NCBI RefSeq assembly: GCF_040409805.1
Contig: NZ_CP099572.1
Span: 372,001 to 436,000 of the forward strand
From: Polynucleobacter sp. MWH-UH23A
GTDB lineage: Bacteria; Pseudomonadota; Gammaproteobacteria; Burkholderiales; Burkholderiaceae
Length of the DNA stretch: 64,000 bases
Direction: 5' to 3'
A model generated the notes under the pieces. That model was not told the DNA's origin, searched no databases, and saw only the letters and a list, made by a program, of their open reading frames with translations. A program made the position numbers and the translations under genes. Below, in pieces: positions 62,880 to 64,000 of this stretch (positions within the stretch are counted from its first letter, which is position 1; each line of letters starts with the position of its first letter).

Positions 62880-64000
62880 ATGGCTGAATCCCGCTCACGT
62901 ACCGTTACGTTGAACCCTAGCATGACGGGTTCTGGGGATTCAGTTGTGCAGGCCTTAAAAGTACCCCCGCATTCTGTAGAGGCCGAGCAATCACTGCTCG
63001 GTGGTCTACTGATCGATAACTCTTCTTGGGATAACCTGGGTGGAGTATTAAACGACAAAGATTTCTATCGCCCTGAGCATGCTTTGATCTATAAGGTCAT
63101 TGCGCGCCTCATTAGCGACAATCATCCCGCTGACGTCATTACAGTTTATGACGCTGTTAAGTCTGAGCAGGGCGGTGATTTAGTCAGCATTGACTACTTA
63201 AATTCTTTAGCGCAGAACACACCAAGTGCCGCGAACATTAAAGGCTACGCCGATATTGTTCGTGATCGCAGTATTCTGCGTCGCCTTATCGAAGTCTCTG
63301 ACAGCATTGTGAACTCTGCGTTTGTTCCAGAAGGGCGTACTGTTAGAACGCTTTTGGATGAAGCCGAGTCTCGTATTTTGCAAATTGGCGAAGAAGGTAG
63401 TCGCAAGGCGGATTACCTTGAGATTGAGCCGCTCTTAAAAAGCGTAGTAGCTCGAATTGATGAGTTATATAACCGTCAAGGTGGCAGCGACATTACCGGT
63501 ATCGCAACGGGTTTTATTGACTTAGATAAACAAACTAGCGGACTGCAAAAAGGCGACTTGGTGATTGTTGCTGGAAGACCTTCAATGGGTAAAGCTCAGC
63601 CGCTAGATGCGAAGATCAAAACGATTGATGGTTGGAAGTTGATGGGTGATCTTCGTTTTGGCGATCGTTTAGCATCAGTTGATGGCCAGTTTTCCATGGT
63701 GACTGGCATATATCCTCAGGGCATTAAGCAGATATACAAGGTTACTCTTTCGGATGGTCGCCAAGCCGAGTGTTGTGATGAGCATTTATGGCGCGTGATG
63801 TATCGGGATTGGTCTGAGCCGCGCGTAATCAACACCAAGCGTTTAATGGAAATGCTGCAGTGCGTACGTTATAAAAATAGATTATGGATTGATCCAGTTT
63901 CTGGAGACTTTGGGCACTCCAATGCATTGCCAATTCATCCATGGGTATTAGGCGCATTATTGGGTGACGGTACTTTGGCTTTGTCTCACAAGTCCGTGAT
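62880..64000 (+). CDS. dnaB: Replicative DNA helicase DnaB, interrupted by an intein (partial)
   Basis: The gene is open to the end of the window. The N-terminal domain begins at VPPHSVEAEQSLLGGLL (residues 29-45) and the linker to the ATPase runs to about 200. The Walker A motif starts GRPSMGK at 232-238, then breaks: from residue 239 the sequence is an intein rather than the expected Thr-Thr. DnaB unwinds DNA at replication forks and is loaded with DnaC-like or DciA factors. No ribosome site is clear before the ATG. The rest of the helicase must lie downstream of the window. Confidence 0.95.
   Translation, partial: MAESRSRTVTLNPSMTGSGDSVVQALKVPPHSVEAEQSLLGGLLIDNSSWDNLGGVLNDKDFYRPEHALIYKVIARLISDNHPADVITVYDAVKSEQGGDLVSIDYLNSLAQNTPSAANIKGYADIVRDRSILRRLIEVSDSIVNSAFVPEGRTVRTLLDEAESRILQIGEEGSRKADYLEIEPLLKSVVARIDELYNRQGGSDITGIATGFIDLDKQTSGLQKGDLVIVAGRPSMGKAQPLDAKIKTIDGWKLMGDLRFGDRLASVDGQFSMVTGIYPQGIKQIYKVTLSDGRQAECCDEHLWRVMYRDWSEPRVINTKRLMEMLQCVRYKNRLWIDPVSGDFGHSNALPIHPWVLGALLGDGTLALSHKSV
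63594..64000 (+). mobile_element. DnaB intein with homing-endonuclease motif (partial, class 3 features)
   Basis: The intein begins after Lys238 of the Walker A motif. Residue 1 is Ala, not the Cys or Ser of class 1 inteins. Block A reads TIDGWKLMGDLRFGD and block B DGRQAECCDEHLWRV, with Trp after His-Leu, the mark of class 3 inteins. Further on, GALLGDGTL is the start of a LAGLIDADG endonuclease domain, so it can be mobile. About 135 residues are visible; the C-terminal splice junction is outside the window. Insertion at the P-loop means the helicase is dead unless splicing occurs. Confidence 0.93.

Follow-up and report, generated by a model that had tools for sequence, protein, structure and literature searches.

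How can a bacterium live with an extra segment of 352 residues in the ATP-binding loop of the one DnaB helicase found in its genome, and how did the segment come to be there? The question is raised by Polynucleobacter sp. MWH-UH23A, whose genome is one contig of 2,067,170 bases. The stretch of DNA analysed, here called the window, has 64,000 bases and corresponds to positions 372001-436000 of that contig. From window position 62880 on the forward strand, a dnaB frame runs over the window's edge, and when extended in the whole genome it has 831 codons and no internal stops. The N-extein of DnaB (62880..63593, + strand) ends in the Walker A sequence GRPSMGK. In the 831-codon frame, Pfam recognizes the DnaB N domain (E = 7.5e-30) and DnaB_C (E = 4.9e-103), the latter split over two stretches, and NCBIfam TIGR00665 (DnaB) spans residues 29-817 above its cut-off. 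The C-extein begins with T+1 (TAFALNIAENV...) directly after the insert and reaches genome position 437375. Genes for ribosomal proteins S6, S18 and L9 and for an SSB-family protein lie upstream; these are the usual neighbours of chromosomal dnaB.

A genome-wide search returned this DnaB match and no second one. The setting in the ribosomal-protein gene cluster and the single match rule out a phage copy of dnaB, and the open frame of 831 codons rules out a pseudogene or frameshift. With the family profile, no further intein match at E up to 1 was found elsewhere in the genome. Because DnaB is single, splicing is probably obligatory, and because the gene also sits in the ribosomal-protein gene cluster, loss of splicing should be lethal. 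From the single DnaB and the known role of this protein, it is very likely that splicing is required for growth.

As read from the frame in the whole genome, the insert starts at window position 63594 and ends 649 bases beyond the edge (genome 435594-436649, + strand). Its N-terminal 135 residues and two further bases lie within the window (63594..64000), and the remainder occupies genome 436001-436649. GRPSMGK ends at 63593 and AQPLDAKIK starts at 63594 in the same frame. The insertion point in Walker A is Lys|Thr (GRPSMGK|T), the P-loop DnaB site named b in PMC6195587. According to passages of PMC5222942, class 3 inteins are defined by Trp at B:12, Cys at F:4 and Thr at G:5, by a first residue that is not a nucleophile, and usually by Ser or Thr at +1. 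Here, position 1 is Ala instead of Cys, Ser or Thr. Trp66 (B:12) and the catalytic His64 (B:10) form His64-Leu-Trp66 at 63783..63791 (+ strand). Cys332 (F:4, in QCISV of block F) follows beyond the edge in the same frame, and the C-terminal junction, also beyond the edge, reads Thr350 (G:5)-His351-Asn352 and then Thr+1. All of these residues are invariant in 73/73 dnaB inteins of the genus, a set that leaves out G089 (locus L113, which ends at the contig end) and G168 (match to residues 303-352 only), both of which are in no alignment; counts out of 72 refer to the same set without L098 (G116), which counts out of 73 include. A pair of cysteines, Cys60-Cys61 (63771..63776, + strand; block B positions 6 and 7), is likewise found in 73/73. 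The similarity to known inteins is far beyond chance: the structure of the gp41-1 intein (6riz) is matched with E = 1.1e-09 by 69 window residues (63594-63800) and with 5e-14 by the family profile.

The sequence-only reading had proposed a class 3-like intein in the P-loop of DnaB, seeing that the frame passes from GRPSMGK into AQPLDAKIK, that the first residue is Ala and that HLW holds a Trp, and it had placed the Cys and Thr of the class 3 triad past the edge. All of these observations stand, and the two residues are Cys332 and Thr350. When the frame was followed to the C-terminal junction, as that reading had advised, the block F Cys, His-Asn and the +1 Thr were all present, followed by the remaining DnaB; a lack of the junction, a lack of the rest of DnaB or a frameshift, any of which was to count against it, was not encountered in the 831-codon frame. 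Since the full triplet, Ala1 and Thr+1 are found, the class 3 reading no longer depends on the Trp alone, and assignment to class 3 is supported by every sequence criterion.

The intein also carries a putative homing endonuclease. Of its two LAGLIDADG motifs, GALLGDGTL (intein residues 120-128) comes first, at 63951..63977 (+ strand), and is covered by Pfam LAGLIDADG_3 (E = 1.2e-07). The second, GLMDTDGW, lies beyond the edge at genome 436266-436289 (+ strand). The family profile matches the structure of PI-SceI (E = 1.8e-11). Both motifs have their acidic residues, which are nearly invariant among the main-allele inteins of the genus (Asp125 in 68/68, Asp228 in 68/68 and Asp230 in 67/68). Codon analysis of 68 genomes, with L112 (G142) and four diverged inteins left out, gave dN/dS of about 0.047 for the endonuclease, about 0.032 for the splicing blocks and 0.011 for the extein (192 close pairs of 2278). 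In the main allele, the endonuclease is thus not in decay. It had been suggested from GALLGDGTL that the homing endonuclease is active, and this idea gains indirect backing from the intact motifs, the low dN/dS and the signs of lateral spread described below. Such an endonuclease would cleave dnaB alleles at the unoccupied site, where the intein would then be copied in, spreading among species of the genus.

Four genomes (loci L048, L049, L050 and L051 of G076, G058, G179 and G166, respectively) have a diverged class 3 intein of 335-343 residues at the same dnaB site. In these, the acidic residues of LAGLIDADG are all replaced and the splicing residues are kept, as would be seen in an intein outliving its endonuclease. 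In the same four genomes, DnaB carries another insert at DLRE|S, with Cys first, HN last and about 140 residues, which has the look of a class 1 mini-intein. Three others (L054-L056; G175, G003 and G087) have the DLRE|S insert alone.

Occupancy of the P-loop site varies within the genus. A match to the intein was found in 76/186 genus genomes: 70 with the full 352 residues, one with a fragment (G168), the four with the diverged allele and one with the intein in another protein (G009). The C-extein of DnaB was matched in 171/186 genomes, of which 75 have an intein at the P-loop site and 96 show none. Intein-free alleles, for which a survey had been recommended, are precise: in 25/25 genomes fetched among the 96, GRPSMGK stands directly before T, which is the exact empty site GK|T. 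Occupancy is scattered over the DnaB tree. In 68 occupied and 22 empty rows, at least 17 state changes are needed, of which starred branches force 8 or more, and shuffled occupancy labels give a mean of 19.9 changes, with 22 of 500 shuffles as low as 17; this is a quick tree without bootstrap, its 22 empty rows were picked by hand from the 96 rather than drawn at random, and it leaves out L052 (short C-extein), L055 and L056. Supported sister pairs of unlike state occur, for example L023 (occupied) and L115 (empty).

The divergence of inteins was also compared with that of their exteins. In L040, L044, L045 and L046, pS is 0.09-0.15 for the intein vs 0.33-0.50 for the extein. Since the inteins of these four sister genomes are much more alike than their exteins, recent homing is suggested, although the four are also sisters on the extein tree, which counts against this reading. 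In a flank test, nine pairs whose intein is young (pS < 0.25) and whose exteins are older (> 0.3 in the far bins) were set against 434 control pairs. On the C side, the first 120 bases of the C-extein average 0.28 in the nine pairs vs 0.61 in the controls, a likeness as expected if gene conversion had accompanied homing. The difference in the N-side flank is small (0.49 vs 0.58), so that only the C side bears the sign of homing, and L040, L044, L045 and L046 supply six of the nine pairs. When all 2278 pairs are considered, pS of the intein correlates with that of the extein (r = 0.74), and its mean is higher for the intein (0.69) than for the extein (0.59); together, these values speak against constant movement and imply that most copies are old and that descent may have been largely vertical. 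We read the intein as long established in the genus and probably still homing on occasion. Deviation in the opposite direction is seen in L035/L100, where the intein differs more than the exteins (0.83 vs 0.54). In L028/L030 (G100 and G004), the first three C-extein bins are nearly identical (0.05, 0.00 and 0.03) and the intein pS is 0.44, as if an intein allele had been replaced by another, or the flank had recombined.

Related inteins are found at the same site in other, mostly Burkholderiales bacteria, including Limnobacter, Trinickia, Paraburkholderia and Burkholderia. A scan of named genomes gave 98 relatives, of which the best 80 were retained. Among these best 80 of 98, 74 stand directly after (A/G)RPSMGK (37 of them in Polynucleobacter or Polynucleobacter-like loci), L158 and L204 are truncated close to their start, and four more (L209, L211, L212 and L213) are in other proteins, after GK; identity to the Polynucleobacter intein is 71% in Limnobacter and 47-54% in most others. 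Profile searches matched 43 of 399 genomes at the order level and 15 of 398 genomes at the phylum level. Outside the genus, the GRPSMGK site is occupied in at least 10 (L228-L234, L236, L237 and L239) of 392 genomes of the order examined. The loci read in this search were L228-L263, and in 13 of them HxW and THN share a frame.

Phages and plasmids also have such inteins, with matches in 606 of 50,697 phage records and 40 of 72,556 plasmid records. Among the best 40 of the 606, whole inteins are matched at 33-38% identity in class 3 inteins of helicases and terminases, such as DnaB of Xanthomonas phage LucasX and the terminase of Klebsiella phage YC1. They differ from the Polynucleobacter intein in residing in other host proteins and in not always having Cys at B:7. 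The W, C and T residues were present in 8/8 copies read (seven phage, one plasmid), and GK is right before the aligned start in six of them; in L216 and L217 the match starts at residues 2 and 4, with GK one and three residues earlier. A quick tree without bootstrap, built from 42 rows chosen by hand and containing long branches that join, groups all 30 P-loop DnaB rows, including the diverged Polynucleobacter allele, in a single clade (support 100) to which no phage row belongs. A phage origin of class 3, and Lys|Thr as a classic P-loop site, are described in passages of PMC5050341 and PMC3196547. Within the genus, the intein of G009 lies in a terminase-like protein of 968 residues (L016:1112-4018, G009:C6, minus strand) that matches PHROG terminase large subunit. 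This intein has 341 residues, is class 3-like, stands after RQIGK and before S, and is encoded on a 14 kb phage-like contig of a same-genus genome bin.

Taking these data together, we consider it highly probable that a class 3 intein, full-length, able to splice and equipped with a functional LAGLIDADG homing endonuclease, occupies GK|T of the single chromosomal DnaB, and that it spreads within the genus. The anatomy, the conservation, the precise empty sites, the scattered occupancy and the greater likeness of some inteins than of their exteins are observed; we infer the chemistry of splicing, its occurrence in vivo and the activity of the endonuclease. In the precursor, Walker A is discontinuous, with 352 residues between its Lys and its Thr. 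By the class 3 biochemistry given in passages of PMC5222942, PMC6195587 and PMC7664689, Cys332 (F:4) would, after translation, attack the Lys-Ala1 peptide bond directly, giving a branched thioester that bears the N-extein. Transfer of the N-extein to Thr+1 would follow, Asn352 would cyclise, and the exteins would join into a DnaB of 479 residues with the Walker A sequence GRPSMGKT. Thr+1 would thereby double as splicing nucleophile and Walker A residue, and the helicase would work only once the intein is excised.

Such dependence might allow replication to be controlled through splicing, as the sequence-only reading had inferred. It can be imagined that the intein is kept as a regulator, in which thiol stress or metal pauses splicing and holds back replication. 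The precedent is DnaBi1 of M. smegmatis, a class 3 intein at the same P-loop site, whose splicing, according to passages of PMC6195587 and PMC7360933, is halted by oxidation via a Cys48-Cys118 disulfide and blocked by zinc on Cys118, respectively. The exact redox pair of DnaBi1 is rejected for Polynucleobacter, where Ile47 is aligned at the position of Cys48. Instead, Cys60-Cys61, just before the catalytic His, could play the part of Cys48. This pair is kept even in the four inteins without endonuclease motifs, and so is a third invariant Cys (Cys263 in GGFCSI, beyond the window's edge; 72/72). B:7 is Cys in 10/10 non-genus inteins read at the P-loop site (Cys-Cys in eight, Ala-Cys in L236 and L237) and also in L235; it is Asp in L244 and L258, and Cys in only 4/8 phage and plasmid copies read. 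These counts rest on the genus set, the eight phage and plasmid copies and the non-genus loci L228-L263. The best 80 relatives are not counted because ECCDEHLW was one of the scan patterns, and L228-L263 are not fully free of this bias, having been found with a profile built from the scan relatives. Other inteins have Thr or Asp at B:7, next to the scissile bond. Conservation of the pair would follow equally from a role in catalysis or structure, and 96 intein-free genomes among 171 with the DnaB C-extein argue against a general need for the intein. Retention of the intein as a regulator is therefore unlikely. Its more specific form, in which Cys61, possibly aided by Cys60, joins the nucleophile Cys332 in a reversible disulfide or metal site and replication stops until splicing is allowed, is similarly unlikely. 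If it were true, two different switch designs at one helicase site would argue for selected, not accidental, control.

Two further explanations fare much worse. A decayed or non-splicing intein, with DnaB supplied from another source, has parallels in inactive class 3-like inteins such as Arth_1007 (in a passage of PMC3196547), but the open frame, the presence of all catalytic residues, the strong purifying selection and the failure to find a second DnaB make it most improbable. A class 2 route, in which Thr+1 attacks the N junction directly, would suit a position 1 without Cys, Ser or Thr, as in class 2 (PMC5222942), but we give it hardly any credence, as the complete Trp-Cys-Thr triplet in 73/73 is the class 3 signature and class 2 was reported from KlbA only in the relevant passage of a 2011 paper (PMC3196547).

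The site, the class and the phage link have been published for mycobacteria and their phages (PMC6195587 and PMC5050341), and the mechanism is known as well. The Polynucleobacter intein is real, complete and typical of its kind, which is known though uncommon; its one point of special interest is a possible thiol switch at Cys60-Cys61. In the PMC literature searched, no paper joining inteins and Polynucleobacter was found, nor any report on the P-loop DnaB inteins of Limnobacter, Trinickia, Paraburkholderia, Burkholderia and the like; absence from print is not claimed for the former. What the genus offers is a natural series, in which the P-loop of a presumably essential helicase is occupied in 75 genomes and shows no intein in 96 with a DnaB C-extein match, including supported sister pairs of unlike state and four genomes with the splicing part but no endonuclease motifs. 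This series permits direct tests of the cost or benefit of a P-loop intein to its host and of the invariant Cys pair as a switch.

Among solved inteins, gp41-1 (PDB 6riz and 6qaz) is the best match to the splicing domain. A passage in PMC7664689 gives Thr at G:5 in gp41-1, as in the Polynucleobacter intein. Natural gp41-1 is class 1, unlike the Polynucleobacter intein. The 6riz chain has HLW where 6qaz has HLF, and for this reason 6riz is taken as probably an engineered Trp-Cys-Thr variant of gp41-1. In the DnaB1 intein of M. chimaera, Cys124, His65 and Thr143 form a protease-like triad (PMC7664689), the counterparts of which are Cys332, His64 and Thr350 here. The closest parallel in site and class is that of M. 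smegmatis DnaBi1 and the M. leprae DnaB intein (PDB 6bs8 and 6own), which, as described in passages of PMC6195587, share insertion in the DnaB P-loop, the Trp-Cys-Thr triplet, Ala1 and the use of the P-loop Ser/Thr as +1. The differences are that DnaBi1 is a mini-intein without endonuclease, whereas the Polynucleobacter intein carries one; that Cys48 and Asp62 of DnaBi1 correspond to Ile47 and Cys61; and that the +1 residue is Ser in DnaBi1 and Thr in Polynucleobacter.
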